From NCBI GenBank assembly GCA_025361425.1, contig JANYAH010000165.1, forward strand, positions 1-52,777: a stretch of 52,777 nt of DNA. Direction: 5' to 3'. Positions within the stretch are counted from its first letter, which is position 1. Each line of letters starts with the position of its first letter. Below the pieces are notes generated by a model. The model did not search any database. It worked only from the letters and a program-made list of their open reading frames with translations, and was not told the DNA's origin. The position numbers were made by a program, and so were the translations under genes. This document shows, piece by piece, positions 2,641 to 15,015 of this stretch. This stretch comes from Candidatus Solibacter sp. (GTDB lineage Bacteria; Acidobacteriota; Terriglobia; Bryobacterales; Bryobacteraceae).

Positions 2641-3660
2641 TTAGAAGAGTTTGATGCGCAGGAATTTCCGGGGATTCTCGCGAAACTCCTTAGTGGTGGT
2701 TTGGAGTTCCTTCGCCATCCCCTGTAAATTGTCATAGACGGCGGAGGTGGTGAGCAGCGGTCCGGCGTTGAACTGATCCACCTGCCGGATGAGGGCGGCC
2801 ACCTGCCGCGTCCAATCGTTATAGGAGCGCTCCCCGGTGATCATTTCGGCGCCGTGCAGGCCATCGATGGAGCGCCGCAGGGCGGACACCTGGGTCAGCG
2901 CCTGCTCATACTGCAGGGGATTGCGGAGCAGAGTCCCGCCGGCTCCCTGCCCGGATTGGAGGCGTGCCAGGCTTGCGTCCAATTGGCGCAAGGGTTCGGT
3001 GATCTTGCGATACAGCGCGTCGGTGTAGAGCGCTTGCCCGACGGCCGTGGTAGTGTCGGCGGCGACGTGGATGCCGCGTTGCAGATCGGTGACCTTGTCG
3101 CGCAGGCCGTTGTAGATGGTCTCGCCCATGATTAATTCACCGAGCGGGCTTTTGCCCTGCTCGATCTCGTCCAGCAGGACCTCCATCAAATGGAGACGCT
3201 GCTGGAACTGGGCGAGATCCAGGCGCTGCATCACGTCTCCCGAGCCTTTGAACTGGATCTCGCCGCGCGGCATCAGGTGCTTCGGGCCGGCACCGCTGGT
3301 CACATCGATAAATTTATCGCCGATGATGGTGTCGGAAGTAGTCTGGGCGGTGGAATCGTCGGTGATGCTGGTCAGCCGGTCGCGCTCGATGCTCATGGTG
3401 ACTTTGACCACGCGATTGGGCTCATTGGAGCCGGAAAGTTCGACCAGTATGACCTTGCCGACGCCGATGCCATCGACGCGCACGGGAGAGCCAGGGGCCA
3501 CGCCGGTGGCATCCGGCAGGTAGAGATAGATTTGAGTCCTGGGCTCAAGGAAAGTGCCCCCGGTGAGCAGGTAGACCACGGTTCCCAGAATCACCAGTCC
3601 CGCTAGAATCACGGCGGAAGCGCGAACTTTCGCCCAATTCACCTGCTGAGCCGACGGCAT
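2641..3660 (-). CDS. MlaD/MCE-domain lipid transport protein
   Basis: 339 aa. One N-terminal membrane helix (about residues 12-34, VILAGLVILGTVVYLL) is followed by an MCE/MlaD domain at roughly 40-120 (YLPDATGVAPGSPVRVDGIGVG, then IIGDKFIDVTSG). The long C-terminal part (about 130-339) is largely helical with heptad character, as in MCE proteins that build an inter-membrane tube or needle. MCE proteins are the periplasmic substrate-binding part of Mla-type ABC transporters that move phospholipids between inner and outer membranes. The ATPase and permease partners (MlaE/MlaF) are not adjacent, so this copy is unlinked or pairs with a system elsewhere. Start ATG at 3660. Confidence 0.85.
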   Translation of the reverse strand: MPSAQQVNWAKVRASAVILAGLVILGTVVYLLTGGTFLEPRTQIYLYLPDATGVAPGSPVRVDGIGVGKVILVELSGSNEPNRVVKVTMSIERDRLTSITDDSTAQTTSDTIIGDKFIDVTSGAGPKHLMPRGEIQFKGSGDVMQRLDLAQFQQRLHLMEVLLDEIEQGKSPLGELIMGETIYNGLRDKVTDLQRGIHVAADTTTAVGQALYTDALYRKITEPLRQLDASLARLQSGQGAGGTLLRNPLQYEQALTQVSALRRSIDGLHGAEMITGERSYNDWTRQVAALIRQVDQFNAGPLLTTSAVYDNLQGMAKELQTTTKEFRENPRKFLRIKLF

Positions 3661-4308: not shown

Positions 4309-5145
4309 CTACGACGACAGGGCGCGAACCACGATCCAGGATTTTTCGAATAGGCTGAGGCGGACGCGGTGCGAAAAGACGTCGTAATTGGTGGCTGCGA
4401 TGCGCTCTAGAAGGCGGGAGTAGATGGAGATGAGCGCCCACAGGGATGAACGGCTGCGGGGATGAACCAGATCAAGCAGGGGCAGCGACTCGTCATAATA
4501 GGCGCGGGCACGGGCGGATTCAAAGCGCATCAGTTGGAGAAACGCCGGAGTAAGGTTTCCGGCGCGCAAATCGTCTTCGGTGACGCCGAAGCGGCGCAGG
4601 TCTTCGGCCGGCAGATAGATGCGGCCTAGTTCGGCATCTTCGCGGATATCGCGCAGGATGTTGGTCAATTGAAACGCCACGCCGCATTTTTCGGCGAGCG
4701 GCAGAGCGCTGCGCGTATCGAAGCCGAAGATGTGGATGATGGCGAGGCCCACCACCGACGCCACCTGGTAGCAGTAGCGGTACAACTCGTCGAACGTCTG
4801 CAGGCTGCGCGGTTCCAGATCGGACGAAATGCCGGTGATCATCTGCCGGAAATAATCGTGCGGGATGGCGAAACGGCGCACCGTGTGGTGAAAGGCGGGC
4901 CACACGGGATGGTCGGCGAATCGGCCCTGGAGCGCCTCTTCCATGTCTGCGCGCCAGTGGTCCACGGCGGAACGGGAGGCGCCGGGTTCGTCGCTCAAAT
5001 CGTCACAGTAGCGCATGAAGGCATAGATGGCGCACATGGCTTTACGCTGCTGGGCGGAAAGCAGGACGAACGAATAATAGAAGTTCTTGGCGCGGCCGCG
5101 GGCCACTTGCAGGCAGTATCGGTAGGATTGCTCGACGGTGACCAT
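4309..5145 (-). CDS. hpnD: Presqualene diphosphate synthase HpnD
   Basis: 278 aa, normal for the family. It starts at ATG 5145, overlapping the stop of hpnC (TGATG), and begins MVTVEQSYRYCLQVA. Both aspartate-rich motifs of squalene/phytoene synthases are present: MRYCDDLSDE (about 46-53), and QLTNILRDIREDAELGRIYLP in the middle. HpnD condenses two farnesyl diphosphates to presqualene diphosphate, the first step of the HpnCDE route to squalene. It is the last gene of the hopanoid operon. Assignment to HpnD rather than HpnC rests on the NFYYSF N-terminus and ATNYDVF-type C-terminal segment. Confidence 0.9.
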   Translation of the reverse strand: MVTVEQSYRYCLQVARGRAKNFYYSFVLLSAQQRKAMCAIYAFMRYCDDLSDEPGASRSAVDHWRADMEEALQGRFADHPVWPAFHHTVRRFAIPHDYFRQMITGISSDLEPRSLQTFDELYRYCYQVASVVGLAIIHIFGFDTRSALPLAEKCGVAFQLTNILRDIREDAELGRIYLPAEDLRRFGVTEDDLRAGNLTPAFLQLMRFESARARAYYDESLPLLDLVHPRSRSSLWALISIYSRLLERIAATNYDVFSHRVRLSLFEKSWIVVRALSS

Positions 5146-6083
5146 CAGGCTGCCCGCGTGGAGAAGGCCACGCGCACGACCGAGCCGATTAGCAGGCCGA
5201 CGCGCTCCATTTTGGAAATGGCTGGGCGGGCGCCAAGCACGTCGTAGCCCTGTTGTTGGATTTTTTCCAGCACGCGCATGCCGCCGCGGCTGAAGAGATC
5301 CAGATCGATCGCCAGGCGCCGGTCCACCATGCCGGCAAGCGGCAGACCCTCGAGGAAAAGTTGGCGCGCGCGGGCGACAATTTCGCGCATCACGCCGGCG
5401 AAGGCGGGGGTGAAGCGCCGCGCGAAGAGTTCCTCCAACGTGTAGCCGTGGCGCTCCATGACCTCGAGGGGAATGTAAACCCGATTCTTGAGCAGATCCA
5501 CGGACACGTCCTGCCAGAAGTTGGCCAGTTGCAGTGCCGTGCAGGTGGCATCGCTTAAGCTCTGGCGCGCGGGGTCGCTGAAGCCTGCGAGATAGAGCAC
5601 GAGGCGTCCGACGGGGCTGGCCGAATTGCGGCAGTATCCGAACAACTCGTCCCAATTGCGATAGCGGGTCACGGTCTGATCTTGCATGAAGGCGTCGATC
5701 AGGTCGGAGAAGGGCTGCGGGGGGATGGCGTATTGGGTGACGGTGGACGCGAGGGCCGCGAAGACGGGGTGAGTGGCGCGCCCGTGGTACATTCCATCCA
5801 GTTCGCCGCGCCACCAGGCGAGGAGGCGGAGGCTTTCGGCGGTATCGGCGATCTCATCGGCGAGATCGTCGGCCCAACGGCAATAAGCGTAGACGTTGTA
5901 GAAATCCTGGTGGAGGCGCTTGGGGAGGAGAAAGCTGACGACGTGAAAGTTCTCGTAGTGGTTGGTGGCCAACCAGCGGGAATAGGCACGACCTTCCGAG
6001 GCCGACCAAGTCCGAGTCATCGCCGCCGGCGACCGGACAAAGGCCGCGGGGGGCAAAAACGCGGGTGAGCCCACGCCGGACAT
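5145..6083 (-). CDS. hpnC: Hydroxysqualene synthase HpnC
   Basis: 312 aa. Squalene/phytoene synthase fold with NHYENFHVVSFLLP near residue 41, the aspartate motif YCRWADDLADE (67-77) and LQLANFWQDVSVDL as second motif. HpnC converts presqualene diphosphate from HpnD to hydroxysqualene. The ATG at 6083 follows the stop of the upstream dehydrogenase directly (TAAATG), and the TGA overlaps the hpnD start, so the genes are translationally coupled. Another ATG at residue 22 (MTRTWSASEG) is a possible start, since the first 21 residues look non-conserved. The third partner of the pathway, the flavoprotein HpnE, is not in the window. Confidence 0.9.
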   Translation of the reverse strand: MSGVGSPAFLPPAAFVRSPAAMTRTWSASEGRAYSRWLATNHYENFHVVSFLLPKRLHQDFYNVYAYCRWADDLADEIADTAESLRLLAWWRGELDGMYHGRATHPVFAALASTVTQYAIPPQPFSDLIDAFMQDQTVTRYRNWDELFGYCRNSASPVGRLVLYLAGFSDPARQSLSDATCTALQLANFWQDVSVDLLKNRVYIPLEVMERHGYTLEELFARRFTPAFAGVMREIVARARQLFLEGLPLAGMVDRRLAIDLDLFSRGGMRVLEKIQQQGYDVLGARPAISKMERVGLLIGSVVRVAFSTRAA

Positions 6084-7124
6084 TTACGGAACGATGGCCG
6101 TTTTCAGGTGGCCGTTGTGGCTCATCAGGTGGCGCATGACTTCCAGCAGGTTGGCGAGCGGCTCCTCGTTGTTGACGAAGAAGGATGCGGTGATGTGACC
6201 CGCGCAAACCAATTCGAGGGCCTTGCGGATGTAAGCCGGGGTGTGATGGAAGCTGGCCTTGCAGGTGATTTCGGAGTAATGGAGGAGGGCGGTATCCAGG
6301 TTCACCTTGCTCTCATTGGGGCAGCCGCCGAAGAAATTGACGGTACCGCCGCGGCGGACCATGTTGACGGCCCACTGCCAGGTTTGGGGCTTGCCGACGG
6401 CTTCGATTGCCACGTCGACGCCGCGCCCGTGGGTCATTTCGCGGATGGATTTCACGGGGTCGCTGTGCTCACCGGCCACGATGAGGTCATCGGCGCCGAT
6501 GGCGGCGGCGCGATCTAACTGGGTCTGTCTGCGGCCCACGGCGATCACGCGGCAGCCGTAAAGCTTCGCCAGTTTGACGAACATCAGGCCGATGGGACCG
6601 AGGCCCACAATGGCGACGGTATCGCCGGCGCGGGGAGCCGATTCCTCAAAACCGCGCACTACACATGCCAGGGGTTCGACGAGGGCTGCATCCTGATAGC
6701 CGACTTTGTCGGGGATCAAGTAAGTATTGCTTTGCACGATGCGGGCCGGAATGCGGATGTACTGGGCGTAGGCGCCGTTGTTGAAGAGCAGGTCTTCGCA
6801 GAGATTCTCCAGGCCGCGGCCACAGAAGAAGCACTCTCCGCAGGGCGCCGAATTCGCCGCCACCACGCGCTGCCCGACGGTGAAATTCTTGACGTCCTCG
6901 CCAATTGCGACGACATCCCCGGCCAGTTCGTGCCCGAACACAGCCGGGGGCACGATCATCCGAGCGTGGTAGCCGCGCCGGAAGACTTTGACATCGGTGC
7001 CGCAGGTGAGTGCCACCTTTACGCGTACGAGGATGTCTCCGCTTTGAATTGTGGGAACAGCTACCGGCTCTACCTGCAAGTGTTCCTTGCCGTAAAGCAC
7101 AGCAGCCATCATGTGGTTATTCAC
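6084..7124 (-). CDS. Zinc-dependent MDR alcohol dehydrogenase in the hopanoid operon (second copy)
   Basis: 346 aa from GTG 7124, which follows the preceding stop directly (TAAGTG) and has AGAGGTGG upstream; ATGs at residues 5-6 are alternatives. Medium-chain dehydrogenase: catalytic zinc ligands C41 (LTCGTDVK) and GHE at 64-66; structural zinc cysteines at 95, 98, 101 and 109; nucleotide-binding VGLGPIGLMFVKLA. It resembles polyol/threonine dehydrogenase-like enzymes that oxidise or reduce a secondary or primary alcohol with NAD(P). It sits between another MDR gene and hpnC inside the operon, so a substrate in hopanoid side-chain metabolism is likely by context. Its exact substrate is unknown. 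Confidence 0.85.
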   Translation of the reverse strand: MNNHMMAAVLYGKEHLQVEPVAVPTIQSGDILVRVKVALTCGTDVKVFRRGYHARMIVPPAVFGHELAGDVVAIGEDVKNFTVGQRVVAANSAPCGECFFCGRGLENLCEDLLFNNGAYAQYIRIPARIVQSNTYLIPDKVGYQDAALVEPLACVVRGFEESAPRAGDTVAIVGLGPIGLMFVKLAKLYGCRVIAVGRRQTQLDRAAAIGADDLIVAGEHSDPVKSIREMTHGRGVDVAIEAVGKPQTWQWAVNMVRRGGTVNFFGGCPNESKVNLDTALLHYSEITCKASFHHTPAYIRKALELVCAGHITASFFVNNEEPLANLLEVMRHLMSHNGHLKTAIVP

Positions 7125-8180
7125 TTATGACCACCTCTGTGGCTGAACCACTATTTTCAACGATTTAGGTCTTGGATGCAATGCCATTTCAAATCCTGAA
7201 CGGATTTTAACCAACGGCAGACGATGAGAGATCAGCGCTTCCACCGGAATCTCGCCACCGAAAACCAGTTTCGCCGATTCTTTTTGCAAGTCTACTGAAG
7301 CACTATAGCACCCAAAAAGGGTACGTTCACCTACACAAAGGTCCGCGCCGGAAGTTTCTATGCGTTCGGTGGCGGAAGTTTGGGCAAAAAGCAGAATGCG
7401 CGCGCCGGGCCGCGAGCAGGCCATCGCCTGGTCCACGATAGAGGGAACCGAGGTGGCCACGATCACCAGATCGGCGCCACGGCCATCGGTGAGCCGACGG
7501 GTCTCGGCGGCGACATCGACCTTGCGAGGATCCCAGGCGAATTCGGCGCCGCATTGGGAGGCCAACTCCAGGCGGGCGTCAATTGTGTCGGTGGAGGCAA
7601 CGCGCGCCCCCGTGCGGCGGGTCAGCATGGTGAACATCAGGCCGATGGGCCCCTGCCCGAGGATGACGACGAACTCTTCGGGCCGGGGGTTGCATTGCAC
7701 CACGGCTTTGAGGCAGGTGTTGAGCGGCTCCACCAAGGTGGCGCGTTCGAAGGAAACTCCGTCGGGAATCTTCTCGACGCCGTCTTCCACAATCCAATCC
7801 ATCACGCGCACGTACTGGGCGAAGCCTCCGCCGGCGGGCTCAAACCCGGCGGTGATCCCCACTTTCTTGTATACGGGACACTGGGCGTAGATCTTTCGGC
7901 GGCAGTAGAAGCACTGGCGGCACGGGATGTGATGAAAAGCGACTACCCGATCACCGAGGCTGAACTTGGTAACACCGCTGCCCACGGCAGCCACGACGCC
8001 GGCGGTTTCATGCCCATAGACGCGGGGCGGGGCCAGCAGATTGTGCTCGATCTTCTTCAGATCGGTGTGGCAGATGCCGCAGGCCTCCACGCGAATCAGG
8101 ATCTCGCCGGGACCGATCACGGGCGTTGGGATCTCCTCAACGCTTACAACACCGCTACCGCGGTAGACCGCTGCGTGCAT
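7125..8180 (-). CDS. Zinc-dependent MDR alcohol dehydrogenase in the hopanoid operon (first copy)
   Basis: 351 aa from ATG 8180 (MHAAVYRGSGVVSVEEIP), chosen because it is the normal MDR N-terminus and lies 22 bp after hpnG; a longer frame to 8312 would overlap hpnG deeply. Catalytic zinc residues C37 (CGICHTD) and GHE 56-58; structural zinc cysteines at 87, 90, 93 and 101; cofactor site VVILGQGPIGLMF. It differs clearly from the neighbouring MDR gene, so the two are not a recent duplication. They may act in sequence or as a hetero-oligomer. The setting between hpnG and hpnC points to modification of the ribosyl-derived hopanoid side chain; this is inference. Confidence 0.85.
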   Translation of the reverse strand: MHAAVYRGSGVVSVEEIPTPVIGPGEILIRVEACGICHTDLKKIEHNLLAPPRVYGHETAGVVAAVGSGVTKFSLGDRVVAFHHIPCRQCFYCRRKIYAQCPVYKKVGITAGFEPAGGGFAQYVRVMDWIVEDGVEKIPDGVSFERATLVEPLNTCLKAVVQCNPRPEEFVVILGQGPIGLMFTMLTRRTGARVASTDTIDARLELASQCGAEFAWDPRKVDVAAETRRLTDGRGADLVIVATSVPSIVDQAMACSRPGARILLFAQTSATERIETSGADLCVGERTLFGCYSASVDLQKESAKLVFGGEIPVEALISHRLPLVKIRSGFEMALHPRPKSLKIVVQPQRWS

Positions 8181-8202: not shown

Positions 8203-8898
8203 TTAGAATCGGCAGTCGGCAATAAAATCTCCCAGTACAAGCGCGGCCCGGAGACAACGGTTACGCAGGCGGAGCAACTCCGGCAAACGAACCAGCGGAT
8301 GACGCAATGCACCTTTTAAAATACTTATTGTAGCGAAGTGGCCGTCCGGGCGCAGAGCCCGGTTGAAGTTGTTCGCCATGTCTTCGTCCGCCAGGTCGGT
8401 TACGACCCGGACACAGTAGAAGGGAACGCCGCGCGCGGCGGCGCGTTCGGCCACCCCGCCGGCTTCCATTTCCACCACGGTGCCACCGGCTGCGCGCAGC
8501 CGGCTCTTCTCTTCGGCGGTCTGCGCAACGTGATCTATAGAACAAACCACACCCATGCGATGCTGCCGGTCACTGGCAGGGTGCAAAGTCTGGAAAGTGC
8601 GCGATCCGGTTGAAATTGCGGTACCCACGACTACGTCGGCAATCTTGAGTTCCTGGGCCAGGGCACCGCAGAAGCCAGTGCTGACGATGACTTCCGCGGG
8701 AAAGTATTGCAGGGCGGCTTCGACGGCGGAAGCGGCGCGTTGGGCGCCCGCTCCGTTGGCCGCCAGCACCAGCTCGTGGGTGCCAAGGCGGGCGGAGCGC
8801 GACCAATCTAGCGCGAGATGCCCGGAGGACACGCAGGCAGCGTGCGCCAGGATGCCGGGGAACTCCATGGGGTCTGAGGCTACCATGAGGATTCTCAT
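8203..8898 (-). CDS. hpnG: Hopanoid phosphorylase-family protein HpnG (adenosylhopane nucleosidase)
   Basis: 231 aa. Nucleoside phosphorylase/MTAN-like fold: STGFCGALAQELKIADVVVG (about 72-91) is the glycine-rich strand-loop, and VVEMEAGGVAERAAARGVP holds the ribose-binding Glu, followed by RVVTDLADE with the catalytic-type Asp. In hopanoid producers HpnG removes adenine from adenosylhopane made by HpnH, leaving a ribosyl-type hopane. The ATG overlaps the stop of hpnA by one base (TGATG). Its C-terminal tail is rather basic. Gene order hpnH-hpnA-hpnG supports the assignment. Confidence 0.88.
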   Translation of the reverse strand: MRILMVASDPMEFPGILAHAACVSSGHLALDWSRSARLGTHELVLAANGAGAQRAASAVEAALQYFPAEVIVSTGFCGALAQELKIADVVVGTAISTGSRTFQTLHPASDRQHRMGVVCSIDHVAQTAEEKSRLRAAGGTVVEMEAGGVAERAAARGVPFYCVRVVTDLADEDMANNFNRALRPDGHFATISILKGALRHPLVRLPELLRLRNRCLRAALVLGDFIADCRF

Positions 8899-9893
8899 CA
8901 GGCGGCCGGCTTATGGAGAGGCCGGAGGCGTGTGCTACTGAACCATTCGACGGCGCGAGAGAGGGCCTGTTCGGCCGGTGCGGGGCTGAAGCCAAGATCG
9001 CGCTTCGCCTTTTCGTGGGTCACCCACATTTTCTTCTTCGCCATGCGGACGGCATCGAGCGGTACGCGCGGCGGCTTGCCGGAAACGCCGGCCCAGGCGG
9101 TGCTGCACGCGCCGGCGCAATAGGCCACCAGATAGGGAAGGCGAAGGGTGGGCGCTTTTCTTCCGGTGAGGCGCGCGAGTTTTTGCAAGATCTCCGCCAG
9201 GGTGAGATTCTCCGAGCCCAGGATGTAGCGCTCGCCGGAGAGGCCGTGCTGGCAGGCCTGCCAGTGGCCTTGCGCGGTATCGCGGACGTCCACCACGTTG
9301 AGGCCGGTATCGATGAAGGCCGGCATATCGCCATTGAGGAAGTCGAGCACGATTTTGCCTGTCGGGGTGGGCTTGACGTCGTGATCGCCCAGCGGGGCGG
9401 TGGGGTTCACAATCACCACGGGCAGCCCGCCGTGGGCAAACTCCATAGCCACCTGCTCGGCGAGAAACTTGGAACGCTTGTAATCTCCGGCCATATCCTG
9501 GAGCGTCACGGGCGCCTGTTCATCGCCGACGCCGCCGGGCGGCACGCCGATGCAGCCTACGGTGCTGGTATAGACGACGCGCTCGATACCCGCGTGCTTC
9601 GCAGCCTGCAAAAGATTTCTGGTGCCGTCGACATTAGAGCGGTACAGTTCGCCGGGATCCCGGGCCCACAGGCGGTAATCGGCAGCCACATGGAAGAGGA
9701 GCCCGCAGCCCGCCAGTGCACGTTCGAGCGACGCGGGGTCGCGCAGGTCTCCGGTGACGCTATCGACATCGAGAGCGTCCACGCGGCTGCCGGGGCGAAC
9801 CAGGGCGCGCACGCGGAACCCCCGTTCCAGAAGTACGCGCGCCACATGCCAACCGAGGAACCCGGAGGCTCCGGTGACGAGTACGGGCTTCAT
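8898..9893 (-). CDS. hpnA: Hopanoid-associated sugar epimerase/dehydratase HpnA
   Basis: 331 aa extended SDR protein. It begins MKPVLVTGASGFLGWHVARV with the GxxGxxG NAD(P) site; the DLRDPASL segment follows at about 50; the active-site pair is in YKRSKFLAEQ (YxxxK), where the family more often has YHRSKF. HpnA is found almost exclusively in hopanoid gene clusters; its substrate is not firmly established. It starts 3 bp after the stop of hpnH and overlaps hpnG by one base, so it belongs to the same transcript. Confidence 0.9.
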   Translation of the reverse strand: MKPVLVTGASGFLGWHVARVLLERGFRVRALVRPGSRVDALDVDSVTGDLRDPASLERALAGCGLLFHVAADYRLWARDPGELYRSNVDGTRNLLQAAKHAGIERVVYTSTVGCIGVPPGGVGDEQAPVTLQDMAGDYKRSKFLAEQVAMEFAHGGLPVVIVNPTAPLGDHDVKPTPTGKIVLDFLNGDMPAFIDTGLNVVDVRDTAQGHWQACQHGLSGERYILGSENLTLAEILQKLARLTGRKAPTLRLPYLVAYCAGACSTAWAGVSGKPPRVPLDAVRMAKKKMWVTHEKAKRDLGFSPAPAEQALSRAVEWFSSTRLRPLHKPAA

Positions 9894-9896
9894 TCG

Positions 9897-11012
9897 CTAC
9901 TTCAGGGTCCAGGCCAACATCTTGAGGTTGTCGGCCAGACCGACATTGATTCCGAGGGCGGCCGAGGGTTCGTACCCGCAATGCACCATACAGTGGTCGC
10001 AACGCGGATCGTTCCCGTGGCCGTAGTTTTCCCAGGGGGTCTGCGTCATGAAATCCTCGAAGGTTTTGTAGTGGCCGTCGGTGATCAGGTAGCAGGGGCC
10101 CTTCCAGCCCTTGACGTTATAGGTGGGGTTGCCCCAGGCGGTGCAGGGCAAGTCGCGCTCGCCCTTGAGGAACTCCAGATAGACCGGCGTCTGGCGGATG
10201 GCGAAACGCTTGGCGAGGCGAGCGATGTCCTTGAATTTTTCGTGGACGTCATCGCGCGTCAGGAAGATTTCGCGATCGTTGACCGCGCTGTAGCCGTAAG
10301 CCGGGGCGATCTGGTGACCGTCCACGCCGAGGGTTTCGAGGTACAGGAACAACTCCTCAATTTCCTTCATGTCGGTCTCTTTATAGACCGTGGTGTTGGT
10401 GCAGACCTGGAAGCCGGCCGCCTTAGCGAGCTTGATGCCTTCGATGGCTTGCTTAAATACGCCCTCGCGCTCCACGGCGATATCGTGATTCTTCTCCATG
10501 CCATCGAGGTGCACGTTGAAGTAGAGGCGCTTGTCTGGCTTGAATTCGTGGAGGCGCTTCTTGATGAACATGCCGTTGGTGCAGAGGTAGATGTAGCGGT
10601 CGCGTTGCAGGATTCCCGCCACGAGTTCGCCGATTTGCGGATACATCATGGGCTCGCCGCCGCAAATCGAGACCACCGGCGCCCCGCACTCATCCACCGC
10701 CATCAGGCACTCTTCGAGCGGCACGCGCTCTGTGATGGTGCTCTCGTACTCACGGATGCGGCCGCAGCCGGTACACGTGAGGTTGCATGCGTGCAAGGGT
10801 TCAAGCATCAGCACGATGGGGAACCGCTTGTTGATCATGGGATGCGGCTGGCGCTTCTCGCCGGGCTTGGCGGGCATGGTGGACAGGATACGGAACGGGT
10901 TAGACGCATCCGGCACGGCCGCGACGGTCTTCTGCCACTCCGGGCGGGGACGCATCTTATTCTTGAAAATGTACCCGGCCAAGCTGGCGGTCATCGAGAT
11001 AGGAAATTTCAT
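9897..11012 (-). CDS. hpnH: Adenosyl-hopene transferase HpnH (radical SAM)
   Basis: 371 aa. The radical SAM cluster motif is CNLTCTGC at residues 76-83 (C76, C80, C83), followed by CGGEPMMYP, typical of the SAM-binding GGE. The conserved C-terminal segment has YGHGNDPRCDHCMVHCGYEP, a cysteine-rich part seen in HpnH. HpnH adds the 5'-deoxyadenosyl group to diploptene to give adenosylhopane, the first step of extended hopanoid side-chain synthesis. It starts 3 bp after the shc stop. Length and motifs are full. Confidence 0.94.
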   Translation of the reverse strand: MKFPISMTASLAGYIFKNKMRPRPEWQKTVAAVPDASNPFRILSTMPAKPGEKRQPHPMINKRFPIVLMLEPLHACNLTCTGCGRIREYESTITERVPLEECLMAVDECGAPVVSICGGEPMMYPQIGELVAGILQRDRYIYLCTNGMFIKKRLHEFKPDKRLYFNVHLDGMEKNHDIAVEREGVFKQAIEGIKLAKAAGFQVCTNTTVYKETDMKEIEELFLYLETLGVDGHQIAPAYGYSAVNDREIFLTRDDVHEKFKDIARLAKRFAIRQTPVYLEFLKGERDLPCTAWGNPTYNVKGWKGPCYLITDGHYKTFEDFMTQTPWENYGHGNDPRCDHCMVHCGYEPSAALGINVGLADNLKMLAWTLK

Positions 11013-11015
11013 AAT

Positions 11016-12941
11016 CTATCCATTCGAAGTTGCACGAGCCTTCACGAACGAAGACAAAGCAAGCAGCGGGAAATAGTCCTTGTAGAGATGGTAATTCAAG
11101 TAGAAAAGGCGCGGGAAGCCGGTGCCGGTGGCCAGTTCCTCTTCCCAGCTTCCGTCGCCGCGCTGGGTTTCGAGCAGGTATTCGATGCCGTGGCGCACGC
11201 TGAGGCTGGCCGGATCGCCGCCCGCGATCAGCCCGAGAATGGCCCACGCGGTTTGCGAAGGCGTGCTGGGTCCGGCGGTGAAGATGCGCTTGTCGTAGCT
11301 CTGGCAGCTTTCGCCCCAGCCGCCGTCGGCGTTCTGAATGGAGCGTAGCCACTCGCCGGCGCGCAGGATGTGGGCCTCGCGATCGTTCTCACCCGCGGCG
11401 GCGAGTCCGCGCAGGGCGAAGCAGGTGCCGTAAATGTAGGCCACGCCCCAACGGCCGTACCAACTGCCATCGGCCTCCTGGTGTTTGATTAGCCAGTCCA
11501 TGCCGCGCCGCACGGCCTTATGGCTGGCGTCTAACTGGTGGGCCGCCAGAGCTTCCAACACGCGGCCGGTAATATCCGCGCAGGTGGGATCGAGCATGGC
11601 GTTGTGATCTGAAAACGGCACCTGGCTGAGGAATTCCCAATTATTATCGACGTCAAACGCGGCCCAGCCGCCATCGCCAGATTGCATGGCCAGCAGCCAA
11701 TCGAGCCCGCGCTGCAAAGCCGACCGCTGCGCCGCGGGATCGGAGGCGTGGATTTCGCTGAGCGACAGGATGACCATCGCGGTATCGTCGATATCCGGAT
11801 AGAATTCGTTAGAGTACTCGAAGGCCCAGCCGGAAGGCTCGGTATTGGGACGTTTAACGCTCCAATCGCCCTTGCGCCGGATTTCCTTGTGAAGCAGCCA
11901 GTCCGCCGCCGGGGTCAGCGACTCGTGCTGGGGATCTGCCAGGGCCAGGGCGTAAGCCCCGATCGCGGTATCCCACACGGGTGAGAAGCAGGGTTGGAAG
12001 AAGAAGCGGTCGCCGTCATCGACCATGAGGTTGTTGAAGTGGCGCAGCGCATCGACACGCAGAGGGTCGTCCTTGGCGAAGCCCAGGACATCCAGCGCCA
12101 TAACCGAATACATCATTGGCGGATAGATCGCGCCCAGGCCGTCGGAGTGGTGAAGGCGCTCCAGCATCCAGTTTTTGGCCTTCTCCACGGCGCGGCGGCG
12201 AACGGCTTTACTGCCGCTGCGCTCCCACCACTTGAGCAGCTTGTCCACGCTAAGGAAAAAATTGTGCCAGGTGAAGAGCGAGGGGTCGTGGTGAAAGGCG
12301 GGGCTGACACCGGGCAGCCAGAGTTCCTCCAGGGTAAGGCCGGCGGGCACGGGGCGTCGCGGATTGGCGGCGTGCACGATGGAAAGCGAGATCACGATGG
12401 CGCGGGTCCATGCCGACATCTGGTAAAGCAGGTCGAAGGGCATCAGCGCGACTTCGGGTGGAATGCTGGGGCAATATTCCCGCGGATAGAGATCGAAGAG
12501 GCTGAGGTTGACCTTGACGTAGCTGTTGGCCGCCTGGATGCCGCCGAGTTCCAGGATGCGCTGGCGGAGGGGTTGCATGCGCTGGCTGTCCACGGCCACG
12601 CCGGCCAGTTTCAGAGCGAAATAGGCCTTCACCGAGGCGCTGACTTCGGCGGGGCCGCCGGTGCAGATATTGAAACCGCCATCGGGCAGTTGACGCTGCA
12701 GAATCGAGATCACGGCCTTATCGATGAGGGGGCGGGTCTCGGGCGACCACTGGCCGTTGACCGGCGGGTGGAGCCAGAGCTGAAACAGGATGTAATCGGA
12801 TTCCAGGGTGGTGTCGGCGGTGAGTTCCGCACACCAGTGGCCGTCGCGTTCCTGGAGGCAAGTCAGGTAGTCCGCCGCCTTGCGACAGGCGCGCCCGGCC
12901 TCGTGCTGTAGCGTGTTGCCGACTTGGGACGGCGCACTCAT
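11016..12941 (-). CDS. shc: Squalene-hopene cyclase
   Basis: 641 aa from ATG 12941 (MSAPSQVGNTLQ), which overlaps the ispH stop as ATGA. A longer open frame to 13118 has a non-conserved arginine-rich extension inside ispH and is rejected. The catalytic acid motif PDIDDTA lies near residue 380. Several QW-type repeats are visible (QERDGHWCAELT, QSGDGGWAAFDVDNNW, QEADGSWYGRWGVAYIYG, QNADGGWGESC, QRGDGSWEEE). The enzyme cyclises squalene to hopene/hopanol at the inner membrane. It is followed by hpnH after 3 bp. All main features of a working class II cyclase are present. Confidence 0.96.
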   Translation of the reverse strand: MSAPSQVGNTLQHEAGRACRKAADYLTCLQERDGHWCAELTADTTLESDYILFQLWLHPPVNGQWSPETRPLIDKAVISILQRQLPDGGFNICTGGPAEVSASVKAYFALKLAGVAVDSQRMQPLRQRILELGGIQAANSYVKVNLSLFDLYPREYCPSIPPEVALMPFDLLYQMSAWTRAIVISLSIVHAANPRRPVPAGLTLEELWLPGVSPAFHHDPSLFTWHNFFLSVDKLLKWWERSGSKAVRRRAVEKAKNWMLERLHHSDGLGAIYPPMMYSVMALDVLGFAKDDPLRVDALRHFNNLMVDDGDRFFFQPCFSPVWDTAIGAYALALADPQHESLTPAADWLLHKEIRRKGDWSVKRPNTEPSGWAFEYSNEFYPDIDDTAMVILSLSEIHASDPAAQRSALQRGLDWLLAMQSGDGGWAAFDVDNNWEFLSQVPFSDHNAMLDPTCADITGRVLEALAAHQLDASHKAVRRGMDWLIKHQEADGSWYGRWGVAYIYGTCFALRGLAAAGENDREAHILRAGEWLRSIQNADGGWGESCQSYDKRIFTAGPSTPSQTAWAILGLIAGGDPASLSVRHGIEYLLETQRGDGSWEEELATGTGFPRLFYLNYHLYKDYFPLLALSSFVKARATSNG

Positions 12942-13909
12942 TGGATGGAGACGGTCAACTCCGCGGGTAGAGAGAACCGCACATCTTCGTCCACAAGATC
13001 GATCTCTTCCATTTGTTGGAACCCGCGATCGCGCAGAAACTCGATCAGTTCCCGCACGAGGTGCTCTGGCGCCGATGCCCCGGCCGTAACCCCGACGTTG
13101 GTCACGCCGTCCAGCCAAGCCGAATCCACATCACGGCGATCGTTCACCAAGTGGGAATTCACGCCAAAATTCTCACCCACCTCCACCAGGCGCTTGGAGT
13201 TGGAACTGTTCTCCGAACCCACCACCAGGAGCAGGTCCACGTTTGCCGAGACAGCCTTCACGGCCATCTGGCGGTTTTCCGTGGCGTAGCAGATATCCTG
13301 CGATTGCGGACCTTCGATCAGGGGAAAGCGTTCTTTCAGGCGGTTGACGAGATGGGTGGTCTCATCCAGGCTGAGGGTGGTCTGGGTGAGGTAGCGGACG
13401 TGCGTGGGGTCGGGGAGTTCCAAGTTGTCCACGTCCTGCAAGGTCTCCACCAGATAGCTGCGCTCGGGCACTTCGCCGAGCGTGCCGATCACCTCATCGT
13501 GATCCCGGTGCCCGATGAGCACGATACTGAAGCCGTCGCGGGCGAAACGGACGGCTTCCAGATGTACCTTGGTGACCAGCGGACAAGTGGCGTCGATCAC
13601 GTCCAGACGGCGTTGCTTGGCTTGGCGGCGCACCGCGGGCGAGACACCGTGCGCGCTGAAAATGGCGCGCGCGCCCGACGGGACTTCGTCCAGTTCCTCT
13701 ACAAACACCGCACCGGCCGCGCGCAACTCCTCCACGACGTGCTTGTTGTGCACGATTTCCTTGCGGACGTAGACCGGCGGACCGTACAAATCGAGAGCGA
13801 TCTTGACCACATCGATAGCCCTCACGACACCGGCGCAGAAGCCACGGGGCTTGAGCAAAAAAATCTTCTTACCCGCGCCGTGATTCGGTGCGAAAGGCTT
13901 AAGAGGCAT
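12938..13909 (-). CDS. ispH: 4-hydroxy-3-methylbut-2-enyl diphosphate reductase (IspH/LytB)
   Basis: 323 aa from ATG 13909; a TTG at 13927 gives a slightly longer form. Neither has a clear Shine-Dalgarno. The three iron-sulphur cysteines are visible: PRGFCAGVVRAI near the N-terminus, DATCPLVTKVH in the middle, and DICYATENRQ towards the C-terminus. IspH makes IPP and DMAPP in the last step of the MEP pathway. As first gene of the hopanoid operon, overlapping shc by 4 bp (ATGA), it ties precursor supply to triterpenoid synthesis. Any operon promoter must lie in the 160-500 bp upstream. Confidence 0.95.
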   Translation of the reverse strand: MPLKPFAPNHGAGKKIFLLKPRGFCAGVVRAIDVVKIALDLYGPPVYVRKEIVHNKHVVEELRAAGAVFVEELDEVPSGARAIFSAHGVSPAVRRQAKQRRLDVIDATCPLVTKVHLEAVRFARDGFSIVLIGHRDHDEVIGTLGEVPERSYLVETLQDVDNLELPDPTHVRYLTQTTLSLDETTHLVNRLKERFPLIEGPQSQDICYATENRQMAVKAVSANVDLLLVVGSENSSNSKRLVEVGENFGVNSHLVNDRRDVDSAWLDGVTNVGVTAGASAPEHLVRELIEFLRDRGFQQMEEIDLVDEDVRFSLPAELTVSIQ

Positions 13910-14070
13910 AGAAGTTATAAGGTTCAATTATAACAGGTGGATGACGCTGGGCGCTCCCGCCGGAGCGCCAGGAGACAGCAGCGGGCTGCCGGTTACAGAC
14001 TGAGTGCATACTCCATTGTACCGAGGTTACAGTGACAGATGGCCTGACCTTGCGTCTGGTTGCAAGCGAT

Positions 14071-14428
14071 TCAGGGCTGCGCGCCATTGACCGGCTGAAA
14101 GATGGATGCGCTTGTCGCCGCCTTCTTGGGGTCGGCATCGCGCGGCATTCCCAGCGCAAACTGTCGGGGGAAGTACTCTTCACCGGGGTCTTCCACCTTG
14201 GCCATAGGAGTCTGACTGGCGGGCTCGGGGGCATCCAAAGCAGTGGAAAATGAGGCAGTGTAGTCCTCCGCAACTCCCGTCGCCGCGATGACCACATACC
14301 GGCCGCTGCGATTGCGTTGAATGGGATCTCGTTCGAGCTCACCTTGAGCGGTCGCGGCACCGCTGGAGCGTAATGGCGTCCACGAACTCAACTGCGCCGA
14401 GAATTCGGTTGTCCAGCCGCACTCTCAC
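14071..14428 (-). pseudogene. Frame-disrupted Pvc16-associated carboxypeptidase-regulatory-like gene
   Basis: A GTG overlaps the stop of the DUF4255 gene (GTGA) and reads VRVRLDNRILGAVEFVDAIT, then hits a stop. In a second frame the sequence continues VPRPLKVSSNEIPF, and in a third RNRSGRYVVIAATG through PRQFALGMPRDADPKK and IFQPVNGAQP to TGA at 14071. Joined, the pieces match the layout I recall for the small protein next to Pvc16 homologues (RNRSG, LPRxFxLxLPRDPDP, FQP). Two frame changes in about 70 bp suggest decay, or sequencing/assembly errors. The reconstruction is by eye. Confidence 0.5.
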
Positions 14429-15015
14429 GACGTCTCTCCGGGTTCCCCCATTTCGCCGGTACTAAACCGTTCCGCAATCGCCTGGAGCGTCTCGGGCATC
14501 GAAGCCTCCTCAACTAGTACGAGGCGCGCCGTGTACGCCACGCTCAGCCGGTACGAAGAATGCATTCTGTCCCAGATGCGCGCCATCTGCTCGAGCGTCA
14601 ACTCCGCGGGAATGATCTCGATTTTCTCCGTGGGCTTCCACGACGCGTCGCCGCGCAGGGTGGATCCGTCCAGAATCGGGTGGAGCTGCAATTGCCGCAT
14701 CGCCCAAGTCAGGATCACATGCTCGTCACCCGGCGCTTTCGACCACACGGTCAGCAGGTACTCAAGATCGAGCGCCAGCGGGGGCCGCCGGTTGGAAAAT
14801 GGCGTGGGGCGCGCCTGCCGCAGATGCTCGTTCGACTGAATACGGTACAGCAAAAGCGATAGGGTAGTATCGGCTTCATCGGCGCTAGCGAGAAAACCAG
14901 TCGAGGATTGCTTGAAGATACATGGGAAGTCGTGGCGCAAGTCGTCGGGATAACTGTTATCCAGCAACCGCACGATTGATTCGCCGACAAAGTGGACGGC
15001 CTTTACGTTCGCCAT
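14425..15015 (-). CDS. DUF4255/Pvc16-like protein
   Basis: 196 aa. The N-terminus is a helix with GESIVRLLDNSYPDD, followed by LSLLLYRIQSNEHLRQ and PPLALDLEYLLTVWSKAPGDEHVILTWAMRQL. This is the pattern of the Pvc16 N-terminal domain (DUF4255), a cap/terminator-type protein of extracellular contractile injection systems. No sheath, tube, baseplate or AAA+ genes of such a system are present in the window, so this is an orphan or displaced copy. The start at 15015 lies inside a short upstream ORF and has no own ribosome site, which suggests coupled translation. Family call is fairly secure; function here is not. Confidence 0.72.
   Translation of the reverse strand: MANVKAVHFVGESIVRLLDNSYPDDLRHDFPCIFKQSSTGFLASADEADTTLSLLLYRIQSNEHLRQARPTPFSNRRPPLALDLEYLLTVWSKAPGDEHVILTWAMRQLQLHPILDGSTLRGDASWKPTEKIEIIPAELTLEQMARIWDRMHSSYRLSVAYTARLVLVEEASMPETLQAIAERFSTGEMGEPGETS

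Follow-up and report, generated by a model that had tools for sequence, protein, structure and literature searches.

Two zinc-dependent dehydrogenases in an acidobacterial hopanoid operon as candidate enzymes of side-chain completion

What is the role of two genes for zinc-dependent medium-chain dehydrogenases (MDRs) in the middle of an acidobacterial hopanoid operon, and might one of them convert ribosylhopane into bacteriohopanetetrol (BHT)? The preliminary description of this locus considered that the step has no firmly assigned enzyme, and the literature agrees. Sinninghe Damste et al. (2017; PMC5462960) describe the enzyme as still unknown and suggest HpnA, and the sections consulted of a 2025 paper (PMC12583986) treat it as not established. 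No assignment of an MDR enzyme to the step was found in the literature covered, which included the consulted parts of PMC6373157, PMC10301674, PMC8970348 and PMC6226438 and left subscription papers mostly outside its scope.

The window, i.e., the whole stretch of DNA analysed here, comprises positions 1-52,777 (52,777 nucleotides) of the forward strand of contig JANYAH010000165.1 from Candidatus Solibacter sp. (GCA_025361425.1). NCBIfam and Pfam models place on its minus strand, from 13927 to 4309, the operon ispH-shc-hpnH-hpnA-hpnG-MDR1-MDR2-hpnC-hpnD, in agreement with the gene positions and order described before. The gene ispH (12938..13927) codes for HMBDP reductase; its frame begins with TTG, and the real start may be further in. 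It is followed by shc (hpnF; 11016..12941) for squalene-hopene cyclase (TIGR01507, 640 bits), hpnH (9897..11012) for the radical SAM protein adenosylhopane synthase (TIGR03470, 430 bits) and hpnA (8898..9893) for a hopanoid-associated SDR or “sugar epimerase” (TIGR03466, 473 bits), all of which score above the cut-off. The product of hpnG (8203..8898) belongs to the adenosylhopane nucleosidase/phosphorylase family (TIGR03468, 165 bits; curated cut-off 187). Directly downstream of hpnG, after a gap of 22 bases, lies MDR1 (7125..8180, ATG start), predicted to be of the NAD type. MDR1 abuts MDR2 (6084..7124, GTG start), predicted to be of the NADP type, which in turn abuts hpnC (5145..6083) for hydroxysqualene synthase (TIGR03464, 354 bits, above the cut-off). 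The last gene, hpnD (4309..5145), overlaps hpnC by 1 base and codes for presqualene diphosphate synthase (TIGR03465, 264 bits; cut-off 279). HpnG and HpnD score below the curated cut-offs, yet these are their best models. The genome also harbours a second squalene-hopene cyclase above the curated cut-off (G000:C233:13799-15658).

The association of both genes with hopanoid clusters is already known. For the Acidobacteriota, Sinninghe Damste et al. (PMC5462960) termed the gene after hpnA-hpnG ug1, and the gene preceding hpnC ug2. They note that ug2 frequently carries the annotation of a Zn-binding alcohol dehydrogenase (approximately 350 residues) and link it to hpnC, hpnD and hpnE. MDR1 is probably ug1, judging by position, and MDR2 matches ug2 by position and family. 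The sections of that paper used here give no function for either gene and no family for ug1. Moreover, ug2 is described in one place as absent from SD3 clusters and in another as present in all SD1 and SD3 clusters, whereas we find MDR2 behind MDR1 in all 73 readable loci among the best 80 of at least 537. New here, and bearing on the role, are the opposite cofactor signatures of the two proteins, a locus with MDR2 only and the persistence of the pair without HpnC and HpnE.

To obtain these loci, named bacterial genomes were scanned with an alignment of 17 MDR1 sequences, and at least 537 relatives were confirmed. The best 80 were kept; their MDR1 is 94-65% identical to that of the window, and as the closest relatives they form a biased sample. 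All are titled Acidobacteriota except one bin titled Bordetella parapertussis (L266, CALQCC020000014.1), which carries an acidobacterial-type hopanoid operon and is probably mislabelled. A gene counted as a neighbour if it shared the strand, lay no more than 600 bases away and had no other modelled gene in between. Among these best 80 of at least 537, 79 loci can be read upstream of MDR1, and all have hpnG there; 73 can be read downstream, and all have MDR2 as the next gene. Behind MDR2 comes hpnC in 70 of 70 loci, and behind hpnC comes hpnD in 67 of 68. As controls from outside the operon, the window gene for an MlaD/MCE-type lipid transport protein (2641-3660) lies behind hpnD in 3 of 55 relatives, and the window ORF at 14425-15015 recurs in none of 50. 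Since the order is repeated in every readable locus of the best 80 while the outer neighbours vary, its conservation is beyond chance. Placement in hpn operons thus makes MDR1 and MDR2 members of the hopanoid cluster across species; hpn neighbours flank the pair in all readable loci of this sample, and the contrary outcome envisaged in the preliminary description, a pair beside unrelated genes in most relatives, did not occur. In the same sample the place between shc and hpnA is taken by hpnH in just 33 of 63 loci and lacks it in 30, and therefore the MDR pair is more firmly placed than hpnH.

In the genomes sampled across the phylum, close relatives of the pair were confined to those with squalene-hopene cyclase. 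In a census of 129 genomes, shc (TIGR01507) was found in 32 and HpnH in 31. The same 17 genomes contain a close relative of MDR1 (at least 48% identity) and one of MDR2 (at least 53%). All 17 are shc-positive (0 of the 97 shc-negative genomes), and each of them carries hpnA and hpnD. Weak matches comprise three to MDR1 (37-38%), in shc-negative genomes, and five to MDR2 (40-43%), in four shc-positive genomes and the shc-negative G078. In a class census of 299 genomes, 221 possess MDR1 and HpnH, 5 only MDR1, 27 only HpnH and 46 neither; four of the five MDR1-only genomes are 79-85% complete. TIGR03468 detected HpnG in 8 of the 129 genomes at E 1e-30, a low number because acidobacterial HpnG is divergent. 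An HpnG model built from 15 sequences matched in 32 of 33 examined genomes, weakly (E 1e-16 to 1e-35) in the groups f28, f32, f45 and f50. HpnH itself comprises deeply separate types within one family (f2, f62, f64).

Both MDR proteins contain ADH_N and ADH_zinc_N domains above the Pfam gathering score. They had been regarded as unrelated; yet they share 31% identity over 331 residues (E 1e-50), and therefore this designation is wrong. By sequence, they are paralogs that have diverged within a single superfamily. Each has its own clade in a midpoint-rooted tree (support 0.78 for MDR1 and 0.96 for MDR2), where the nearest relatives of MDR2 are MDR2-like proteins of group f32, with modest support (0.69). 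Two f32 genomes with two replicons each (G123, G096), whose replicon sizes fit Chloracidobacterium thermophilum, carry their MDR2-like gene with no hpn genes nearby. According to PMC5462960, C. thermophilum produces BHT and its cyclitol ether, and bacteriohopanepolyols and/or C30 hopenes occur in this organism and in all SD1 and SD3 strains tested.

The claim that the catalytic (C, H, E, E) and structural (four Cys) zinc sites are intact holds for the window pair and extends to 105 of 105 MDR1 and 97 of 97 MDR2 proteins; the ligand roles were assigned by the usual MDR motifs. Predicted models display the MDR fold (pLDDT 90.4 for MDR1 and 86.8 for MDR2), and Foldseek searches with both retrieved MDR enzymes as top matches (E ~1e-31), i.e., the general fold, with no pointer to the substrate. 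The two proteins differ where the second beta strand of the nucleotide-binding fold ends. An acidic residue there usually goes along with NAD(H), and a non-acidic residue followed by Arg or Lys with NADP(H). The window MDR1 has Asp198 at this place and the window MDR2 Gly-Arg-Arg. All 105 MDR1 proteins are acidic here (103 Asp, 2 Glu); in MDR2 this residue is non-acidic in 96 of 97 proteins, the next position is Arg or Lys in 94 of 97, and the one after that is usually Arg (89 of 97). These residues mean opposite cofactor signatures, predicting an NAD(H)-type MDR1 and an NADP(H)-type MDR2.

Comparison with named enzyme families renders the proposed sugar or polyol chemistry plausible. The best PDB sequence match of MDR1 is L-threonine 3-dehydrogenase (TDH; 2dfv, 2d8a; E 3e-38), with which it shares the MDR fold and the zinc ligands. 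Yet the window pair scores 151 and 167 bits against the TDH model TIGR00692 (cut-off 458) and is thus not TDH, and it sits among hopanoid genes rather than in amino-acid metabolism. The top two PDB sequence matches of MDR2 are a member of the NADP(H)-dependent ketose reductase/sorbitol dehydrogenase family (1e3j) and a Thermus ADH (4cpd), at approximately 30% identity. 1e3j is a polyol/ketose-type MDR and has NADP in its name, which parallels the NADP-type signature of MDR2. For both MDR1 and MDR2 the top NCBIfam model is IolM, scyllo-inosose 3-dehydrogenase (NF041097; 156 and 170 bits, cut-off 450), which indicates a common superfamily but no membership of the pair in the IolM family. Outside the phylum, a plasmid collection holds 86 records of MDR2 relatives (best 45% identical) and 3 of MDR1. 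The closest MDR2 relative resides on Rhodococcus opacus plasmid pLPS8 (L303, 9007-10056), between genes for a DeoR regulator and a class II aldolase, and an FGGY kinase and an MFS transporter are encoded nearby. This neighbourhood, the one plasmid setting that was read, is of the sugar/polyol type and not hopanoid.

The arrangement is broken in several genomes, and accordingly the view that both genes are locked into the pathway holds for the closest loci, but not throughout. In G134 the order is hpnG-MDR2-hpnC, with no MDR1 in between and none found elsewhere in the genome (91% complete) at E 1e-100; MDR1 is dispensable in at least one lineage. An obligate pair, as suggested by the co-occurrence in the same 17 of 129 genomes, is contradicted by this locus. 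The cluster falls into two parts in six genomes that belong to a single genus: MDR1 accompanies shc-hpnH-hpnA-hpnG and MDR2 accompanies hpnC-hpnD, with hpnE also beside the latter group in five of the six. Four f28 genomes have the order ispH-hpnA-MDR1-MDR2-hpnD, with hpnG-like matches elsewhere; neither HpnE nor HpnC above the cut-off was found in them, and a second protein of the squalene/phytoene-synthase family is present. Their hpnD has been retained beside MDR2 despite these missing genes (L059, L060, L061, L064). In G066 the pair lies apart from hpn genes, and in G137 hpnC is missing behind it, on a contig that is cut upstream. Seven of the 27 HpnH-only genomes of the class census were read (G268, G007, G142, G376, G139, G201 and G134). 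The contig of G268 stops just beyond hpnA, G142 and G376 contain hpnH alone, and G139 and G201 have hpnA with no hpnG or close MDR nearby. G007 harbours shc and HpnH, and lacks matches to MDR, hpnC/E, HpnG and the squalene-synthase family. It was considered as a case of co-loss and set aside: its contig ends 2.3 kb beyond hpnH without hpnA, and true loss and a missing contig look alike here.

Ten acidobacterial genomes contain shc, HpnH and HpnG and neither MDR at E 1e-60 (G029, G059, G071, G089, G092, G099, G108, G117, G119, G126). A ribosylhopane reductase would be expected wherever these three genes co-occur in the phylum, and by this measure the MDR pair falls short; a general role of the MDR genes in BHT formation is not supported. 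A different enzyme could serve in these genomes. Nine of the ten have hpnA, and G059 has shc-hpnH-hpnG with no hpnA in between. All ten are without HpnE and without HpnC above the cut-off, and show a short match to the squalene-synthase family; in G029 there is, in addition, a fuller HpnC/HpnD-like match of 208 bits, which is below the cut-off. Several of these loci carry further genes. In three of four genomes of an MDR-free genus (f47), a gene for an F420-dependent LLM-class oxidoreductase lies directly downstream of hpnG (L181, L184 and L186 in G089, G108 and G126; assigned by family scan on L181 and for the others by phmmer to L181), and its product could be an alternative side-chain redox enzyme. 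Downstream in the hopanoid locus of G119 (L091) lie genes for IDI2 (type 2 IPP isomerase) and HMG-CoA reductase, and two further genes resemble, by eye, mevalonate kinase and decarboxylase. In G092 (L182) a squalene-synthase-like gene follows hpnG, and L180 and L183 show, again by eye, an IPP-isomerase-like start.

Taken together, one of the MDR proteins appears to be a good candidate for the enzyme that finishes the hopanoid side chain. Our leading reading, held tentatively and with somewhat less than even confidence, is that the pair acts on the side chain after HpnG, with MDR2 as ribosylhopane reductase. MDR1 and MDR2 would take over from HpnH and HpnG and work on the C5 side chain, which is sugar-like. 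With NADP(H), MDR2 would reduce the aldehyde (lactol) end of ribosylhopane to yield BHT, and MDR1, with NAD(H), would be its partner on the same side chain, e.g., by oxidising one carbon, to leave a keto or aldehyde intermediate that MDR2 may reduce. We infer the substrate, the reaction direction and the order of steps. The predicted NADPH-type cofactor makes MDR2 the better candidate for a biosynthetic reduction, and it appears the likelier ribosylhopane reductase of the two. This reading is favoured because of the fixed place of the pair behind hpnG, the hpnG-MDR2 junction in G134, the sugar and polyol dehydrogenases among the relatives and the Rhodococcus setting. The census distributions, the persistence of the pair in the four f28 genomes, the opposite cofactor signatures and the f32 relatives of MDR2, two of them in genomes that fit a BHT producer, speak for it as well. 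Against it stand the six split genomes, where MDR2 goes with hpnC-hpnD and not with hpnG, the remote MDR2-like gene of the Chloracidobacterium-like genomes and the presence in all 17 MDR-positive genomes of hpnA, which was proposed for the step (PMC5462960). It is further weakened in that polyol-type MDR enzymes often work on C2 ketoses rather than C1 aldehydes, and in that BHT is made outside the phylum by bacteria that are not known to carry such a gene pair. The ten MDR-free genomes and the lasting tie of MDR2 to hpnC/hpnD argue against a general side-chain role. A bolder version, in which MDR2 is the ribosylhopane reductase of the Acidobacteriota and the two proteins form an NAD/NADPH pair that fixes the stereochemistry of the BHT side chain, is possible but doubtful.

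Among the rival explanations, a lineage-specific tailoring function survives best, although we regard it as rather unlikely in its own right. A general enzyme, HpnA or an unclustered reductase, would make BHT, and the MDR pair would remodel the side chain, for instance by inverting one hydroxyl through NAD-dependent oxidation and NADPH-dependent re-reduction, or by preparing it for a head group. The opposite cofactor signatures fit such an oxidise-then-reduce pair, and clusters with shc-hpnH-hpnG and no MDR do exist, nine of ten with hpnA, a gene that PMC5462960 reports in all surveyed acidobacteria with BHT-synthesis genes. However, the MDR2-only locus of G134 implies that the pair is not obligatory. 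Furthermore, the literature covered yielded no isomer or head group specific to MDR-positive strains, and the Rohmer degradation used in the 2017 study would miss an epimer.

MDR2, and perhaps MDR1, might instead belong to the squalene branch, acting between presqualene diphosphate and squalene or supporting HpnC, HpnD or HpnE. With few exceptions among the clusters read, the gene right after MDR2 is hpnC or hpnD. In addition, MDR2 moves with hpnC-hpnD in the six split genomes, and hpnD accompanies the pair in all 17 MDR-positive genomes of the phylum census. The ten MDR-free genomes, which lack HpnE and an HpnC above the cut-off, point in the same direction, as does the link of ug2 to hpnC, hpnD and hpnE (PMC5462960). 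Yet in 15 shc-negative genomes HpnE occurs with no MDR at E 1e-60, and squalene formation in E. coli by HpnCDE has been reported (Pan 2015, as told in PMC5462960). The pair tracks hpnD but is not kept and lost along with HpnC and HpnE, as the four f28 genomes, which have another squalene/phytoene-synthase-family protein, retain it without HpnE and without HpnC above the cut-off. This function is less likely, and on the whole improbable, because the pair persists in genomes where HpnC and HpnE were not found and is absent from the 15 shc-negative HpnE genomes. The operon itself has no hpnE, and a replacement of HpnE by an MDR protein was considered and dropped for the window's genome, since a full HpnE (476 bits) is encoded elsewhere in it.

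Finally, a reading in which HpnA reduces ribosylhopane, and the MDR genes ride along without a metabolic link and stay because of operon co-expression, is very unlikely: HpnA is an SDR that occurs in MDR-positive clusters and in nine of ten MDR-free ones and has been proposed for the step (PMC5462960), but it is missing between the genes of G059, the same paper cites evidence that it is non-essential for BHT in Burkholderia cenocepacia and missing in Rhodopseudomonas, and passengers would drift, whereas the MDR pair stays fixed where even hpnH often does not.

The constant position of the pair behind hpnG across a large group of soil bacteria provides a short, concrete list of candidates for the BHT step, and the MDR2-only genome G134 points to MDR2 as the first of them. 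If the bolder version is true, bacteria would have arrived at BHT formation more than once, each time with unrelated enzymes. Hopanes, which are widely used as molecular fossils, have BHT and its derivatives as their parent compounds.
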